64,000 bases of DNA. It comes from Pseudohongiella sp. (GTDB taxonomy: Bacteria > Pseudomonadota > Gammaproteobacteria > Pseudomonadales > Pseudohongiellaceae). The translations under genes and the position numbers were made by a program. Positions 3 through 53,901 of this stretch are shown in pieces. Positions within the stretch are counted from its first letter, which is position 1. Every line of letters starts with the position of its first letter. The stretch covers positions 1 to 64,000 of the forward strand of contig NZ_DRFV01000007.1 in NCBI RefSeq assembly GCF_011050365.1, in the 5' to 3' direction. The notes below the pieces were generated by a model, which saw only the letters and a program-made list of their open reading frames with translations, had not been told where the DNA came from and ran no database searches.

Positions 3-1844
3 TTTGCTGGCGTTGACGTGTTTTTTGTCATCTCAGGCTTTTTGATGGCATCGATCATCCTGACCCGCCTGCAGCAACAAAGTTTCAGCCTGGGCCACTT
101 TTATCTGGCCCGCGTGCGGCGGATTGTGCCGACTCTGGCGGTGCTGGTGACCAGCCTGCTGCTGATCGGCTGGTGGCTGCTACCGCCCATCGATTACCGC
201 GATCTGGCTGCCAACGGTCTCTACGCTCTGATGTTAATCGCCAACATCCGCTTTCAGCGCGATGCCGGTTATTTCGAGGCGGCTTCTCACGACAACTGGT
301 TGCTGCACACCTGGTCGCTGGCCGTGGAAGGGCAGTTCTATCTGGTGTTACCTCTGGTGCTGATGCTGGTCTGGCGTTTCAGCCGCAACGGCCTGCTACC
401 GGTGCTGATGGCCTTGATGCTGGTATCGCTGGCCCGGTCCGCCTGGCTCGCCCACAACAGCCCAGATGCTGCGTTCTTCCTGCTGCAAAGTCGCGCCTGG
501 CAACTGCTCACCGGCGCCATTGTGTTTATGATCAGCCAGCGCGCCGTCGCTGGCCGAATACAGCCGTACGCAACACCCGTCTCTGCCCTGGGCTTGCTGC
601 TGATCCTGGCAACCATTGTCAGCGTTGATGCCAGTACTGTCTGGCCCGGCATCGCTGCCATTGCGCCGGTGGCCGGCACCGCCATGATCCTGCTGATGGC
701 ACCGCAGGCGCCCTGGATGCGTGCTGCCCCTTTGTATTATCTGGGCCTCAGCTCATATTCCCTGTATTTGTGGCACTGGCCGGTGGTAGTGGCGCTCATT
801 TTTCTGGGAATCGCCGATAGTGTGCTGGCCATCAGCGGCGGCATGGCACTGTCGGTGCTGCTGGGTCTGTTGTCCTGGCGGTTGATCGAAAACCCCAGCC
901 GAAAGACGCTAAAGTCCGCCTACGTGCTGGCCGGCATAGTTGCCGTCACGCTCACGCCCGCCGTATTGATCTACTCGCAGGACGGCATCCCGGGCCGATT
1001 GCCGGCCAATGCCGAACGCGCCGCGGCCGAAGCGCTAAATTTTGACCCACGACGCGGGGAATGCCTGGCGCGTAACGGCCGCGACTTTCCCTGGTGTCAG
1101 TATGGCGGGCCGGATACCCGGGCCATTGTGGTCGGCGACAGCCACGCCAGCAGCCTGTTTACCGCCATCACATCGCTTGTGCAGCAGGATGATGCAGCGG
1201 CCGAGGAAGAGCCCGAAGCAGGCATACTCGCCAGCGCCTACAATGGCTGCCCGACCCTGATGCAGGGCAGCAGTGTCGATAACAGTGCCGGTTGCCGTGC
1301 TTTTAATCAGTTTCTGGTCGAGCAGCTGGCAAGGCTCGACAGCAATATCCCGCTGATCATTGTCAATCGCAGCAGTGTCTATCATCTGGGCAGCGCCGTG
1401 CGCAGTGACAGCGACTTTCAGCGGCCATTGGTGAGTTACGGGCGCCGCCAGGCCCGGCCCAGCCCCGCGCTCACGGCGCGATACCGCGAAGACCTGATTG
1501 CCACTGCCTGCCATTTTGCTGCACAGCGGCCGGTATACCTGGTGCGACCGATTCCGGAGATGCCAGTGGATGTACCACGCAGCATGGCGCGCCGGCATCT
1601 GCTGAAGCGGGCAGGGGAGATCCGCCTTCCTCGCACCGTCTATGATCAGCGCCACGCCGCCGTGTGGCAGGCCCAGGACCAGGCCGCACAGCAGTGTGAT
1701 GTGCAGATTCTGGATCCGACGCAGGCGCTGTGCGACAGCGATGACTGCTACGGCAGCGACCACGGACGACCGCTGTACTACGACGAAGACCACCTGTCAG
1801 AGTTCGGTGCGGTAAAGGGGACGGAGGGATTTAGCCTGCGTTAA
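3..1844 (+). CDS. OafA/YrhL-type acyltransferase with C-terminal SGNH domain (5' end outside window)
   Basis: This is an integral-membrane acyltransferase (acyltransferase 3 family) that typically O-acetylates surface polysaccharide. The first visible in-frame residues, FAGVDVFFVISGFLMA, are the family's conserved early motif, so the true start lies upstream and only a short N-terminal piece is missing. About ten hydrophobic segments follow, then a periplasmic SGNH hydrolase-like domain with a GDSH block (near 1135) and the terminal Asp/His motif DEDHLSEFGA (about 1786-1815). The last eight codons and the TAA stop lie inside a REP-like palindrome, so the original C-terminus has been replaced just after the catalytic His. 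Its position next to a polysaccharide locus suggests O-antigen or capsule acetylation; the acceptor is unknown. Confidence 0.88.
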   Translation, partial: FAGVDVFFVISGFLMASIILTRLQQQSFSLGHFYLARVRRIVPTLAVLVTSLLLIGWWLLPPIDYRDLAANGLYALMLIANIRFQRDAGYFEAASHDNWLLHTWSLAVEGQFYLVLPLVLMLVWRFSRNGLLPVLMALMLVSLARSAWLAHNSPDAAFFLLQSRAWQLLTGAIVFMISQRAVAGRIQPYATPVSALGLLLILATIVSVDASTVWPGIAAIAPVAGTAMILLMAPQAPWMRAAPLYYLGLSSYSLYLWHWPVVVALIFLGIADSVLAISGGMALSVLLGLLSWRLIENPSRKTLKSAYVLAGIVAVTLTPAVLIYSQDGIPGRLPANAERAAAEALNFDPRRGECLARNGRDFPWCQYGGPDTRAIVVGDSHASSLFTAITSLVQQDDAAAEEEPEAGILASAYNGCPTLMQGSSVDNSAGCRAFNQFLVEQLARLDSNIPLIIVNRSSVYHLGSAVRSDSDFQRPLVSYGRRQARPSPALTARYREDLIATACHFAAQRPVYLVRPIPEMPVDVPRSMARRHLLKRAGEIRLPRTVYDQRHAAVWQAQDQAAQQCDVQILDPTQALCDSDDCYGSDHGRPLYYDEDHLSEFGAVKGTEGFSLR

Positions 1845-1865
1845 ATCCCTCCGTCCCCTTTACCG
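1810..1865. repeat. REP-like palindrome, type A, overlapping the acyltransferase stop
   Basis: The arms CGGTAAAGGGGACGGAGG and their complement flank an imperfect centre (ATTTAGCCTGCGTTAAAT). The element overlaps the 3' end of the acyltransferase gene and supplies its stop codon (1842-1844). It has the same core, GGGGACGGAGGGATTTA, as the copies near 4.3, 4.8 and 5.4 kb. Confidence 0.9.
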
Positions 1866-4287: not shown

Positions 4288-4347
4288 AAGGGGACGTTTA
4301 AGGGGACGGAGGGATTTAGCCTTCGTTAAATCCCTCCGTCCCCTTTT
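4288..4347. repeat. REP-like palindrome, type A, with an extra partial copy
   Basis: A full palindrome has arms at 4300-4318 and 4327-4345 (AAGGGGACGGAGGGATTTA and its complement). It is preceded by a truncated direct copy, AAGGGGACG, at 4288-4296. It sits between the exported-protein gene and the EPS regulator. It ends in TTTTA and could act as a transcription terminator. Confidence 0.88.
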
Positions 4348-4454: not shown

Positions 4455-4775
4455 ATGCTGACAGATGACGCCCGATACAGAATTCTCAAGACCCTGCAGT
4501 CACGGCCGGGCATCAGTCAGCGCGAGCTGGCCAGAGAGCTGGGTATCAGTCTGGGCAAGGTCAACTACTGTCTAAAAGCCCTGATCGACAAGGGCACCAT
4601 CAAAGCTAAAAACTTCAGCAAAAGTGAACACAAGACCGGCTACCTGTATGTGTTGACGCCATCCGGGCTGGAAGACAAAGCCCGCATCACCGCCCGGTTC
4701 CTGAAGCGCAAAGTGGAAGAATACGAAGCCCTGAAGCTGGAGATCGAAGAGATCCAGAAAGAGCTGGGGGCGTAG
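4455..4775 (+). CDS. MarR-type EPS-associated transcriptional regulator
   Basis: This small 106-residue winged-helix protein has [26 protein letters not shown] as its HTH region, followed by a wing ([16 protein letters not shown]) and a C-terminal helix rich in Glu and Lys. It matches the short MarR-like family found at the head of exopolysaccharide clusters. Here it stands directly before an RfaH-like gene (two bases between stop and next start) and about 800 bases before the export genes. It probably controls entry into the polysaccharide locus; the operator is not known. Confidence 0.85.
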
Positions 4776-4777
4776 GA

Positions 4778-5347
4778 ATGAGCCAGCAACGCCAAACAAC
4801 TGCACAGGGAACGTCTGTAAAGGGGACGGAGGAATTTAGCGAGCTAAATCCCTCCGTCCCCTTTACCTGGTACCTGCTACAGTGCAAGGCCCGGCAGCAA
4901 GGCCGTGCCGAGGAACACCTGGAAAATCAGGGCTTTGCCATCTACTCGCCGCAGCACAAGGTCAAGCGCGTACGCCGCGGCCGCTACGAAACCTGCATCG
5001 AATCGCTGTTCCCCGGCTACCTCTTTATTCAACTGACCGACGACAGCAACTGGCGGGCCCTGCACGGCACCCGCGGGGTCAGCAGACTGGTCAGTTTTAA
5101 CGGCCGCCCGCACCCGGTCAGTGACGCGCTGATTGCCGCGCTGAAATCCCGATTTATCGCCCAGACTGAACCGGAAGCGCTGTACCGGCCCGGCCAGCGG
5201 GTAATGATCACTGATGGCTGCTTCCGGGATCTGGAAGCGATTGTCAAAGCCGTGACACCTGACGAACGTATTATTGTGCTGCTCAACATCATGCACAGCC
5301 AGCAGGCGCTGGCGATGAGCCCGACACAGCTGGCCCGGACCGGTTAG
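4778..5347 (+). CDS. rfaH: RfaH-like transcription antiterminator carrying an in-frame palindrome insertion
   Basis: A NusG paralogue of the RfaH type. The NGN domain begins at WYLLQCKARQQGRAEEHLE and continues through SLFPGYLFIQL and RGVSRLVSF; the C-terminal KOW-like domain starts at RPGQRVMITDG. RfaH proteins normally begin within a few residues of the WYLL strand. Here the only usable start (ATG 4778, just after the marR-type stop) puts 30 residues before it, and 17 of these (VKGTEEFSELNPSVPFT) are translated from a REP-like palindrome at 4817-4867. The insertion is 51 bases, so the frame is kept. An ops element lies 120 bases downstream of the stop, which fits a locus-specific regulator. 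Whether the extended N-terminus still works is open. Confidence 0.88.
   Translation: MSQQRQTTAQGTSVKGTEEFSELNPSVPFTWYLLQCKARQQGRAEEHLENQGFAIYSPQHKVKRVRRGRYETCIESLFPGYLFIQLTDDSNWRALHGTRGVSRLVSFNGRPHPVSDALIAALKSRFIAQTEPEALYRPGQRVMITDGCFRDLEAIVKAVTPDERIIVLLNIMHSQQALAMSPTQLARTG
4817..4867. repeat. REP-like palindrome inside rfaH
   Basis: The arms at 4817-4840 and 4843-4866 are 24 bases each with one mismatch and a 2-base loop. The core is GGGGACGGAGGAATTTAGC. With one more base it makes exactly 17 codons, all sense, so the host gene stays open. Confidence 0.92.
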
Positions 5348-5353
5348 CGGAGA

Positions 5354-5417
5354 GCGGGTTGTTAAGGGGACGGAGGGATTTAGCTCGCTAAATCCCTCCG
5401 TCCCCTTAACAACCCGC
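5354..5417. repeat. perfect 31-bp inverted repeat containing a type A REP-like element
   Basis: The arms at 5354-5384 and 5387-5417 are perfectly complementary with a 2-base loop (TC). The inner 21 bases of each arm are the REP-like core; the outer ten (GCGGGTTGTT / AACAACCCGC) are not shared with other copies. It lies seven bases after the rfaH stop and before the ops element. No T-run follows, so it is a strong hairpin but not a standard intrinsic terminator on the + strand. Confidence 0.92.
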
Positions 5418-5468: not shown

Positions 5469-5480
5469 GGCGGTAGCGTG
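5469..5480 (+). promoter_or_regulatory. ops element (RfaH recruitment site)
   Basis: GGCGGTAGCGTG is an exact match to the operon polarity suppressor sequence known from enterobacterial RfaH-controlled operons. It lies on the + strand 80 bases before the first export gene and just after the rfaH-like gene. In known systems RNA polymerase pauses here, and RfaH binds the exposed non-template strand and travels with the polymerase. No other full ops match was seen in the window. Confidence 0.85.
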
Positions 5481-5559: not shown

Positions 5560-8500
5560 ATGAAAAGCGATTCTATGATTAAGTTGAATACCGGCCGTTT
5601 GGCAGCACTGCTATGGCTGATACTGGCAAGTACCCTGGGTGCGTCATATTCACTGGCTCAGGGCGTGACGCTGACCCCCGAGCAAATCCAGCAACTGCAA
5701 AGTCTGTCCGAAGAGGAACGCCGGCAACTGCTGGACCAACAGATCAACGGCAACGCCATCAATCAGGAACCCATCGACAACCCCGATGTGGTGATGCCCA
5801 GAAACGTCAATGACAGTCGCACCACCGTCAACCAGGGGCAGAATGCCCAGCGCCGCCCCAGTCAGCTAAACCAGCAGACACCGCAAGACCAACAGAACCA
5901 GCAACTGCAGCAAAACTCACAAGGCCAACAGAACCAGCAAACCCAGCAATACCAACAAGGCCAGCAAACCCAGCAAAACCAACAGAATCAGTCGCAACAG
6001 GCCGGCCCGGAAAACGAGCTGCTGCTGGTCAACCCCTGGCCCCAATTCCAGCAACCGCCCCGCGACCCACTGCTGATAGAACAGCAACGCCAGCGCTTCG
6101 ATCAGGACCTGGAACCCTTCGGTTACGACCTGTTCGCCGGTACCCCCACCACCTTCGCGCCGGCCACCAATATCCCCGTGCCCAGCACCTATATCGTCGG
6201 CCCCGGTGACACCGTCATCATGCAGCTCTACGGCCAGCGCAACGTCACCCACGAACTGGTGGTCAGCCGCGAAGGCCAGCTGATGTTCCCCGAAGTCGGC
6301 CCGGTCAATGTCAGCGGCCTCAGCTTCGAAGACATGCGCGCGCAACTGCAGAACATCGTCGCCAATCAGCTCATCGGCCAGAACGCCTCCATCACCATGG
6401 GGCCACTGCGCTCCATCAACGTGTTTGTGCTCGGCGAAGCCTGGCGCCCCGGCTCCTACACCGTCAGCTCACTGAGCACCATGACCAACGCCCTGTTTGT
6501 CAGCGGCGGTGTCACCACCGTTGGCTCGCTGCGAAACATCCGCCTGATGCGCAGTGGCGAACAGATCACCGAACTCGACCTCTACGACCTGCTGCTGCGC
6601 GGTGACACCAGTGGCGATGCGCGCCTGCAACCGGGCGATGTCATTTTTATTCCTCCGGTCGGCCGTACTGTGGGCATTGCCGGCGAAGTGCGCCGTCCGG
6701 CCATCTATGAACTCAAGGATGAAACCAGCGCAGCTGATATTCTGGCGCTGTCCGGTGGCCTCACGCCTACCGCATTCCCCGCCGCCTCCCGTATTGAACG
6801 CATCAATGAGCGCGGCGAACGCACGCTGATCGACGTCAATCTCAGCAATACCAACAATACGCCGCCACTGGCTGATGGTGACGTTATCCAGATCCACTCG
6901 GTGATGGATCAGCTGGAAAGTGTGGTGCTGCTGGAAGGCCACGTGCAACGTCCCGGTGGTTTTCAGTGGCGTCAAGGTCTCCGAGTCAGTGATGTACTGC
7001 CCAGCGTTGGTGCCATGTTGCCCAATCCCGACCTGGAGTACGCGCTGATCGCGCGCGAAGTGCAGCCCACCCGTCGCATCGAACTTATCTACGTCAACCT
7101 GGGCGCCGCCATCAACAACCCCGGCTCCGCCGATGATCTGGTGCTGCAGCCACGCGATCAGCTGCATACCTTTGGTGCCAGCCAGAACCGCCAGGTGCAA
7201 TTGCGCACGTTGCTGGATCGACTGTACGAGCAGGCCAGTTTCGAAAACCCGCCGCTGGTGGTCGAGGTCAGCGGCAATGTCCGTTTCCCCGGTGAATATC
7301 CGCTGGTACGGAACATGACCCTGGGCGCTGCCATCCGCTTTGCCGGCGGCCTGCTGGCCAACAGCGAACTGGAACACGTGCTGCTGGAGCGCCGCATCGA
7401 TCAGCGTGGCACCATCGCTGTCGAGCGCCATGGCCTGAACCCGCAAACCCTGAGCACCGAGCAGTCAGTGACGCTGCGCGAACTGGACCAGATCATCGTG
7501 CTGAACGCCAACGAGCCACGTGAAGAGCTGCTGGAAGACACGCTGGAACAACTGCGCACCCAGGCCACCACCGGACAACCGACACAAGTGGTCAGCGTCA
7601 ATGGCCAGGTGCGCTTTCCCGGTGACTATCCGCTGACGCAGAATCTGAGCGTGGATGCCCTGATTGATATGGCCGGCGGCCTGAATGAAAGCGCTGATGC
7701 GTCCACTGCCGAAATCACTCGATTTGATGCCGACCCGGCCATCGGCCGGGAAATCGCCCACGTGGAGCTCGATCTGCAAACACCCGGACTGATCGGGAGA
7801 GGTTTCCAGTTGTCTCCTTTTGACCAGTTGGTAATCCGGCAGATGCCCAACTGGACCGAGTACGAGACGGTCTATATTGGCGGCGAAGTTAATTCACCAG
7901 GCACCTACTCCATCACCAAGCGTGACACGGTCAGTTCACTGATCGCGCGGGCGGGGGGGTTAACCGATTTCGCTGACCCGCGCGCGGCCATTTTCCTGCG
8001 CGAGGAACTGCGTGAAACCGAACAACAGATGCTGGATGAGTTTCGCGATCAACTGGAGCGCGATGTGGTGACCCGCCGTCTGCAGGCTGACAGCAACAAC
8101 GGTGCCACCGGCAATATGGAAGTGATCGAGATGCTGGACCGTATCAGCGACATCACCGCCACCGGTCGCCTGGTGATCGATCTGCCGAGAATACTGTCCG
8201 GACGGGCCGATACTGACGCAGATCCGGTATTGCGCAATGGAGACGAACTGCTTATCCCCCGCACCCAGCAGCAGATCACTGTGGTGGGGGAAGTACACCA
8301 GCCCACCTCCCACCTGTTTGATCGGCGCATGTCCGTGTCCGACTACATCGGCAGCAGTGGTGGTTATACCCAGGAGGCCGACCGCGGCAGTGTCTATATC
8401 ATCAAGGCCAGCGGTGAAGTGGTGTCCTACGGCGACACCCGCTGGTTCTTCCAGGAACGTGAACGCCTGAGTGCCGGCGACACCATTATTGTGCCATTTG

Positions 8501-11263: not shown

Positions 11264-12363
11264 GTATTCCGTTTGTTGATCTGAAGACCCAATACGAGGC
11301 GTTGAAAACGCAAATTAACGCAAGAATTCAAACAGTTCTTGAGCATGGCAAATACATCATGGGGCCTGAAGTCAAAGAGCTGGAGGACAGACTGTCGATA
11401 TACTCTGGCGCAAAACATTGCATTACCGTTGCCAGCGGGACTGAAGCTTTGTTGATCAGCCTGATGGCGCTCGAGATCAAGCCTGGCGACGAGGTTATTA
11501 CAACGCCTTTTACCTTTGTTGCGACCGTTGAAGTAATTGTTCTGCTAGGGGCGAAACCCGTTTTTGTAGATATTGACCCGGATACTTGCAATATTGATGC
11601 AGCACTGATAGCCGCCAAAATTACAAAAAGAACACGCGCTATTGTCCCGGTAAGTCTTTACGGTCAGCCGGCAGATATGGAAGAGATTAATAGAATTGCG
11701 TCGCAACACGGCAACATTCCAGTCATCGAAGATGCGGCGCAAAGTTTTGGCGCCAAATACCAGAACCGGAAAAGCTGTAATTTAAGTACTATCGCTTGTA
11801 CCAGCTTTTTTCCGAGTAAACCTCTGGGGTGCTACGGTGATGGCGGTGCCATTTTCACTGATGACGATGAGATAGCCCAGACGTGCCGAGAAATCCGCGT
11901 TCATGGGCAAAGTAAACGCTACATACACACAAGGGTGGGTGTGGGCGGTCGAATGGATACATTGCAATGCGCAGTTGTTTTGGCCAAGTTGGATCGATTT
12001 GATTGGGAAGTGGAACGCCGGATAGAAATTGGTCAGCGTTATAACGATTTGTTTGATAGGGCCGGTATTGACCGCGTAAAACAACGCCCTGACCGCAGCA
12101 GTGTTTTCGCCCAGTACACAATTCGTGTGCCGCAGCGCGAAAAAGTGCAAACCTATCTGAATAACGTAGATATACCCTCTGCTGTGCATTATCCTGTGCC
12201 GCTTAATGAACAGCCAGCCTACCGCCATCTCTGCTGCTCCGATTGTACGCCCATATCTATGCAGCAATCGCAACAGGTAATCAGTCTGCCAATGAGCGCG
12301 GATTTGGCTGAAACCGATCAATTCCGGATAGTCAGAGAATTGCAGGCGGCGTTACAAGCCTAG
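11260..12363 (+). CDS. wbpE: WbpE/WlbC-like UDP-3-keto-GlcNAcA aminotransferase
   Basis: A DegT/DnrJ/EryC1 PLP-dependent aminotransferase of 367 residues. Motifs are [29 protein letters not shown] (Asp contacting PLP) and [15 protein letters not shown] with the Schiff-base Lys near residue 188. It uses glutamate to aminate C3 of the WbpB product. The start is GTG within GTGA overlapping the wbpD stop. Together with WbpB and WbpD it forms the same three-step block as in P. aeruginosa and Bordetella. Confidence 0.9.
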
Positions 12364-46200: not shown

Positions 46201-46531
46201 ACTCCCTCCTGTTCAGCACGGCTTCCATGGAAATGGTGGCATGAAAGCGATGTGTAACGGGCCAGTGTACAGATGTTGTGAGGAGATTAAAGGGGGGGGG
46301 CCGAAGGGGACGCAGGCGTTTAGCACACTGAACACCTGCGTCCCCTTTTTTATAAACTGGCGGGTCAATGACAGGGTAACGTCGCGTTCACTCGGGAACA
46401 CCTCAGTTTGCAAGTTGACTGAATCACTAATACCTTACCTGATACCTCAATAAATAGTCAGACAACTGCTCATCGATTGTGTTCGTATCAATCTACAGAC
46501 GATATCACCGGGATGCAAAGGAGGACGTCAG
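46201..46531. other. divergent intergenic region with a REP-like hairpin
   Basis: The gap separates the minus-strand pfpI-type gene from the + strand dehydrogenase gene. It holds a G9 tract (46292-46300) and a REP-like hairpin (46304-46347). GGAGG lies at 46520-46524 just before the downstream start. I found no convincing promoter. Confidence 0.6.
46304..46347. repeat. REP-like palindrome, type C
   Basis: The arms AAGGGGACGCAGG and CCTGCGTCCCCTT (46304-46316, 46335-46347) enclose a semi-symmetric centre, followed by a T-run. The core has CGCAGG where types A and B have CGGAGG. It sits in an intergenic region between divergent genes, so it is not simply a terminator. Confidence 0.85.
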
Positions 46532-50992: not shown

Positions 50993-51067
50993 AAAGGGGA
51001 CGGAGGAGATACTTTTTATCTCCTCCGTCCCCTTTAACGCTTTTATCTCCTCCGTCCCCTTTAACGG
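50993..51067. repeat. REP-like palindrome, type B, with tandem half copies
   Basis: A full palindrome (arms 50993-51011 and 51017-51035; AAAGGGGACGGAGGAGATA and complement) is followed by a second half copy and a third shorter one (TTCCCTTTAACG). The last piece provides the C-terminal codons and stop of cysC. It lies between convergent cysQ and cysC. Confidence 0.9.
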
Positions 51068-53856: not shown

Positions 53857-53901
53857 TAATGGGGACGGAGGAGATACTTTTTATCTCCTCCGTCCCCATT
53901 A
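53857..53901. repeat. REP-like palindrome, type B, between convergent genes
   Basis: The arms at 53857-53876 and 53882-53901 (20 bases, perfect) enclose a 5-base loop. The right end contains the stop codon of the MauG-like gene on the minus strand. It lies five bases after the ggt-like stop. It may terminate one or both transcripts. Confidence 0.92.

Follow-up and report, generated by a model that had tools for sequence, protein, structure and literature searches.

In-frame palindromic REP-like elements in rfaH, ligA and smc of Pseudohongiella, and their probable relation to a neighbouring RAYT transposase

Here we report that the rfaH gene of Pseudohongiella sp. contains, in frame, a 51-base palindromic element that belongs to a repeat family of this genus. 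The gene lies in the window, the stretch of 64,000 nucleotides that was analysed (assembly GCF_011050365.1, contig NZ_DRFV01000007.1, positions 1 to 64,000 of the forward strand), whose genome is designated G000. Copies of the family also occur in frame in LigA and SMC, they are clustered around ligA and rfaH, and relatives carry a palindrome-flanked transposase gene. The best explanation, to which we assign a probability of roughly 0.8, is that the element is a REP-type palindrome spread by a RAYT, that it favours the neighbourhood of the transposase, and that it survives in frame in flexible linkers. On this reading, in which transposition is proposed from the pattern of the sequences, the 51 bases would be one copy of a palindromic repeat spread through the genus by a RAYT (an IS200/IS605-like tyrosine transposase), and copies are over-represented near that enzyme's gene. 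Landings out of frame in ligA, smc and rfaH would presumably have been lost, and those in frame in flexible linkers would survive and be translated. The outcome in RfaH would be a disordered tail ahead of the RNA-polymerase-binding NGN domain, most likely near-neutral.

The rfaH gene (4778..5347, forward strand, 189 codons) matches the NCBIfam equivalog model for RfaH, TIGR01955, with 156.2 bits against a cut-off of 144.5, the match beginning at residue 31; PF02357 is also matched, and together with an AlphaFold2 model this places the NGN domain from about residue 30. Directly upstream of its start is a MarR-family EPS-associated regulator (4455..4775, forward strand; TIGR04176, 160 bits against a cut-off of 88), and the gene order of this stretch is similar in G007. 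The sequence GGCGGTAGCGTG, which resembles ops, the RfaH recruitment motif, stands 122 nt past the end of rfaH (5469..5480, forward strand) and occurs twice in the window against 0.14 expected. Of the 12 genomes examined, 9 have this 12-mer in the first 1.4 kb after rfaH; it is absent from that interval in G001, G010 and G014, the last of which is the other species with the element in RfaH. Such an ops-like motif near the gene suggests that this genome makes use of the regulator. The second site of this kind in the window is at 12215-12226 on the minus strand. A pattern search located three further cores of the palindrome that share the same 4 kb with the element in rfaH: 1817..1858, 4302..4343, which is upstream of the MarR gene and preceded by a tandem half-arm, and 5366..5405, which begins less than 20 nt past the rfaH stop codon.

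The element itself occupies 4817..4867 of the forward strand, with its stem at 4817-4866, and forms codons 14-30 of rfaH, read as VKGTEEFSELNPSVPFT directly N-terminal of the first NGN strand (WYLLQCK). Folding of the 51-mer gave a hairpin with 22 pairs and one mismatch at -36.8 kcal/mol, compared with a mean of -12.1 for shuffled sequences (z -8.83; 0 of 200 shuffles equally good). A chance hairpin was ruled out by this z-score and by the 30 palindromes with perfect arms of the pattern GGGGACGGAGG..CCTCCGTCCCC in the genome of the window, where a reversed-pattern control gave none. Sequence, frame, fold and repeat family thus bear out the first-pass annotation, which had described a palindromic REP-like element in frame inside rfaH. 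Its further statement that the element adds 17 sense codons holds in that 17 codons are open and in frame; this number is the length of the element and not a measured gain, and the net gain over relatives is only 13 to 15 codons. With the first ATG taken as the start, 30 residues precede WYLLQCK here, against 17 unrelated residues in G007 and 15 in G071.

After codon 1, rfaH contains no in-frame ATG, GTG or TTG through at least codon 135, which rules out a start downstream of the element, a possibility raised earlier, so that the element is translated if RfaH is. In the AlphaFold2 model of RfaH (34 sequences, mean pLDDT 72.5), residues 7-24 have a pLDDT below 50 and the strand at 30-36 is confident. 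The tail before the NGN domain is thus predicted to be disordered, in support of the earlier proposal of a tolerated N-terminal extension, which the element in RfaH likely is. An alternative is that the hairpin has been kept in the mRNA because it tunes translation or decay of rfaH. It is very stable, begins 39 nt past the A of the ATG, has other copies on either side of it, upstream of the MarR gene and just past rfaH, and has a counterpart at the start of rfaH in a second species (G014). However, the predicted fold keeps the hairpin separate from the ribosome-binding region, with no pairing between the two, family copies sit mid-gene in ligA and smc, where control of a start site is impossible, and most RfaH orthologues of the genus do without the element. 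We consider such a regulatory role improbable.

Only 2 of the 11 RfaH orthologues of the genus contain the element, and 9 are without it. In the second carrier, G014, another variant of the palindrome is read in frame at this position, MRTLEIMGTEEPRSSVPIISH ahead of WYLLQVK, and in none of the 11 do the same residues appear in a non-repetitive form, as might have been seen had they been an ordinary conserved part of the protein. The closest RfaH matches of both carriers lack the element, namely that of G071 for G014 (75% identical) and that of G007 for the window (70%, the nearest RfaH relative found). From these sequences, two separate insertions in RfaH, one in the genome of the window and one in G014, seem likely; the RfaH tree did not resolve G000, G007, G009, G014 and G071 and was discarded as proof of independence. 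An exact empty site for the rfaH element was not seen among the compared relatives, and no rfaH match was obtained in G012, to which the genome of the window is closest by LigA.

A nearly identical peptide is found once in RfaH and twice in LigA of the window's genome (LVKGTEGFSELNPSVPFTH and SLKGTEGFTELNPSVPFTE), as would be expected if the peptide itself were useful and spread as a protein module. Against this, the palindrome is read in other frames, giving other peptides (NGDGGDTSAGESISSVPI, MGTEAIKGESIASVPI), in other species and at other sites, and the RfaH tail is of low predicted order. Because the frames differ from site to site (VKGTEGF, NGDGGDT, MGTEA), the peptide seemingly is not what is selected and looks like a by-product; a peptide module was accordingly rejected as the main reading, and we hold it to be very improbable. 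The claim that the palindrome spreads as peptide therefore does not stand, nor does the description of its presence in RfaH as a rare event, that copy being one of a series in genes around the transposase locus.

The pattern GGGGACGGAGG..CCTCCGTCCCC is present in 13 of the 15 Pseudohongiella genomes, and a related GGATC/AGATC form in 6 of the 15, including G001, which is without the first; G013 alone has neither. In an order-wide sample of 293 genomes 7 match, of which two lie outside the genus with one copy each. The genome of the window also holds more degenerate copies. Copies at 50996-51032, 53861-53897 and 46306-46345 of the window have other loops (AGATACTTTTT) or other arms (GGGGACGCAGG). 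More than one palindrome subfamily seems to coexist in this genome. Among 134 copies from G000, G003, G007, G008, G014 and G002, a half-arm in the same direction was present within 30 nt outside the palindrome for 41 (for none of the six in G002), and a half-arm in the opposite direction for none, at a background of 1.0-3.1% of windows; these half-arms may be targets or leftovers. An unpaired GTAG ahead of the stem is absent, the element beginning with GTAAAGGGG within the stem, and some copies of G002 and G006 read GGTAGGGG..CCCCTACC, with GTAG inside the symmetric part.

LigA is essential, and the protein of the window's genome has profile matches to the adenylation, OB, zinc-finger, HhH and BRCT domains of NAD-dependent DNA ligase. 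Its gene (L040:882-2987, minus strand) contains two in-frame palindromes, and a third supplies the stop codon. Both inserts were placed where the chain of the solved E. coli ligase 2owo is shorter, and the second separates the OB-fold match from the zinc-finger match. Judged by eye on the DNA, 10 of the 15 genomes are occupied at site 1, 10 at site 2, where G007 and G012 are doubtful, and 11 at one or both; LigA of G008, G010 and G013 shows no trace of the palindrome at either site. A single arm, with or without loop, is recognisable in LigA of G001, G002, G004, G005, G006, G011 and G014 site 2.

The hinge of SMC likewise contains in-frame copies in G000 (split), G003, G007 and G014, that is, in 4 of the 8 SMC sequences in an alignment that left out G001, G002, G006, G012, G004, G005 and G011, one of them being partly masked; the hinge-domain match was scanned in G003 and G014. 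In smc of the window's genome (L040:5512-9054, minus strand), the palindrome near 7248 is split, with extra DNA in its loop, and is in frame; three other species have variants of their own at this place.

Reading frames were surveyed for 134 of 186 perfect-arm copies in six genomes, excluding ORFs of fewer than 150 codons (G000 30 of 30, G003 20 of 21, G007 14 of 14, G008 19 of 24, G014 45 of 63, G002 6 of 34); nested matches are included in the total of 186 and counted once in the survey. The gene continues on both sides of 12 of the 134 copies, five in LigA, three in SMC, two in RfaH and one each in a beta-CASP/RMMBL protein and a CysC-CysQ fusion, a tally that leaves out spanning ORFs with an end-placed copy or without a Pfam match and that includes RfaH although its upstream side is start and linker only. 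The beta-CASP/RMMBL ORF of G014 (L248:8840-10441, minus strand) has one in-frame copy between two domains and another at its N-terminus. The CysC-CysQ fusion of G008 (L279:16941-18407, minus strand) has an in-frame palindrome in its linker, and the linker in G010 (L295) is different. Palindromes lying in frame in coding genes, a feature of the Rickettsia palindromic elements (RPE), were thus found in RfaH, LigA, SMC, the beta-CASP protein and CysC-CysQ.

Compared with G012, whose LigA is 93% identical, the net gains at the two LigA sites are 12 and 8 codons, and CysC-CysQ has gained 8 compared with G010; the same comparisons revealed no clean empty site or target duplication at the LigA sites or in CysC-CysQ. 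At these two LigA sites, in CysC-CysQ and in RfaH, the net gain over the relative compared (8-15 codons) thus falls short of the length of the element, which speaks against simple addition: either the linkers change rapidly, or part of the target is replaced by the element.

The LigA inserts are largely in the form of their own species. GGGGTC is the form in G001 (20 of the 20 copies listed there), G011 and site 1 of G004 have GGAGAGATC, G009 has the GGGGACGTAGACCGCC form, and G000, G003, G007 and G014 each have the loop form of their own species. The bases just past the insert are alike in G001, G002, G004, G005, G006 and G011, which suggests either that the insertions were inherited from a common ancestor and later overwritten, or that re-insertion was precise. 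These observations raise the possibility, compatible with the best explanation, that each in-frame site is one old insertion that has been overwritten by the current variant of each species, and the apparent decayed half-arms at LigA site 2 of G012 fit an older insertion. But not every insert agrees with the form of its species: LigA of G001 has GGAGGGATC, a minority form found in 3 of the 20 copies of that genome, and GGAGGGATC recurs at site 2 of G004, whose other copies seen read GGAGAGATC. In G002, G005 and G006 two or more forms coexist within the genome. The nearest relatives of both RfaH carriers, and LigA of G008, G010 and G013, are moreover without trace of an insertion, and the RfaH tree does not order the five genomes concerned. 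We put the overwriting of old insertions forward tentatively, as somewhat doubtful. A step further, ligA, smc and the nearby rfaH, core genes close to the transposase, could offer the palindrome protected harbours in their loops. From these it could not be lost out of frame, and the current variant of each species would overwrite them repeatedly by a copy-and-replace process that exchanges a few linker codons for the element, in place of simple insertion. This we think rather unlikely; if it were true, parasitic DNA would be constantly renewing peptide loops in core proteins throughout the genus.

Assembly error has to be weighed, since several assemblies are metagenome bins and the contigs of G014 break inside ligA at the site 1 palindrome. 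Independent assemblies nevertheless agree, and G001 and the single-contig G009 both have element-derived in-frame inserts in LigA; we regard such an error as the least probable of the explanations considered.

The preferred reading, spread by a RAYT with survival in linkers, draws on the location of the copies. Nine of the 30 perfect copies of the window's genome lie in C9:1-5500 and C7:1-5411, a region of 10.9 kb around ligA and rfaH that was picked after the data had been seen, against 0.09 expected (binomial p 2.7e-16); the other 21 are elsewhere, away from the transposase neighbourhood. The ends of the two contigs, C9 and C7, overlap by 25 nt and their order is consistent with that in G007 by similarity, so that smc, one ORF, ligA and rfaH can be read as one neighbourhood. 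A short form of RAYT has 5 of the 20 copies of G001 within 2.5 kb of it; in G007, 4 of the 14 copies are no more than 9 kb away from it.

PF01797 was matched above its cut-off in all 15 genomes of the genus. The short form of RAYT occurs in nine of them, with open frames of 235-261 codons (162 in G009). It is on the ligA contig in eight of the nine, 0.3-2.1 kb from that gene; in G003 it is on the rfaH contig, the start of which resembles the region past ligA in the genome of the window. Wherever ligA, rfaH and the short RAYT share a contig (G001, G002, G007 and G009), the transposase gene lies between the other two. Palindromes are within about 110 nt of, or overlap, both ends of the short frame in seven of nine genomes; G014 has a close palindrome on one side only, and in G009, where the frame is short, the nearest are more than 500 nt away. 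The motif [ST]NHxH and the Tyr of CxxYxExNP, which from knowledge of the family we take to be the HUH and catalytic tyrosine motifs, are aligned in the nine short forms. NF047646, the model for REP-associated tyrosine transposases, was run on two of the nine short forms and gave them E-values of 2e-17 and 2e-20, with scores (63.7 and 73.1 bits, and 41 for the long form of the window's genome) that do not reach its cut-off of 80 bits. A solved-structure search with one RAYT gave no match at E 0.001. In G014 the RAYT frame (L246:1816-2559, minus strand) appears to have gained N-terminal residues from an in-frame palindrome that precedes the start used in its relatives.

A short RAYT was not found in the genome of the window, which has the long form only, and neither GGGGAC nor GTCCCC occurs in the 4.4-kb stretch (L045) around this long form. 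The long Y1 transposase was rejected as the driver, the stretch around its gene being without palindrome. The C-terminus of the long Y1 transposase-like protein (L039:1468-2433) resembles that of DnaA (TIGR00362, E 6e-12, far below the cut-off). Past ligA, G007 has a palindrome, the RAYT and a second palindrome; the same interval in the window's genome has a single palindrome, which is also the source of the ligA stop codon. This looks like a loss of the RAYT between its flanking palindromes, although a separate insertion would give the same picture. Copies also occur in genomes without a short RAYT (24 in G008, 10 in G012, 10 in G005, one in G010 and none in G013), and those of G008, G012 and G005 indicate that copy number is not strictly tied to the short gene.

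The larger pattern around ligA is of more interest than the copy in RfaH alone. One genus offers a natural series, with mobile DNA in core proteins, a likely enzyme nearby, relatives with and without the insertions, and species variants, in which it can be tested how REP-type palindromes move, whether they spread locally and how linker peptides are gained from parasitic DNA. The proteins concerned would carry short stretches written by mobile DNA. The mechanisms of REP dissemination are described as poorly understood (PMC8266576).

Intragenic REP-type palindromes are already known, from the RPE of Rickettsia and from the work of Di Nocera 2013. A literature search, mostly of titles and with subscription papers largely outside it, returned no report on palindromes within Pseudohongiella genes or on a REP in rfaH. 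Within that search, it appears to be new that the same loops are occupied time and again across a genus, near a transposase and largely by the form of each species, and so does the case of RfaH. The RPE are alike in that palindromic DNA lies in frame in unrelated genes (PMC10969869); they are about 150 bp long, compared with about 40-60 bp here, and the likeness is one of description. Their host is Rickettsia, whereas the host here is a gammaproteobacterium, and RPE-4 and RPE-6 are CGTC repeats, stated by Di Nocera 2013 (PMC3733652) to be without a dedicated transposase. The enterobacterial RU repeats (Delihas 2007, PMC2759123) are likewise small mobile repeats with open frames inside annotated genes, but longer (103-168 bp), and the abstract, on which this comparison by description draws, names no neighbouring transposase.

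The REPs of E. coli and other bacteria with TnpA-REP also combine palindromes with an IS200/IS605-related transposase, and REPs of group 3 are described as generally perfect palindromes (PMC8266576). Classical REPs are mostly intergenic, with an unpaired GTAG before the stem, and no such GTAG is present here. In the TIR repeats of TIRYT/RAYT (PMC3733652), a gene for a transposase with HUH and Tyr motifs is flanked by repeats, some of them self-complementary, with dispersed copies in some species; some share GGGGWSAS, whereas the motif here is GGGGACGG or GGGGTCGG, which fits 7 of the 8 positions of this consensus. The same paper (Di Nocera 2013, PMC3733652) describes REPs inside ORFs, many of them genes of DNA synthesis and repair and including DNA ligase in O. 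terrae, in an intragenic tally that covers GTAG and CGTC repeats, and also different REPs at about the same recB site in two Xanthomonas species. Compared with the cases described there, several of the struck genes in Pseudohongiella lie near the transposase, and most members of the genus have the palindrome in the same loops.
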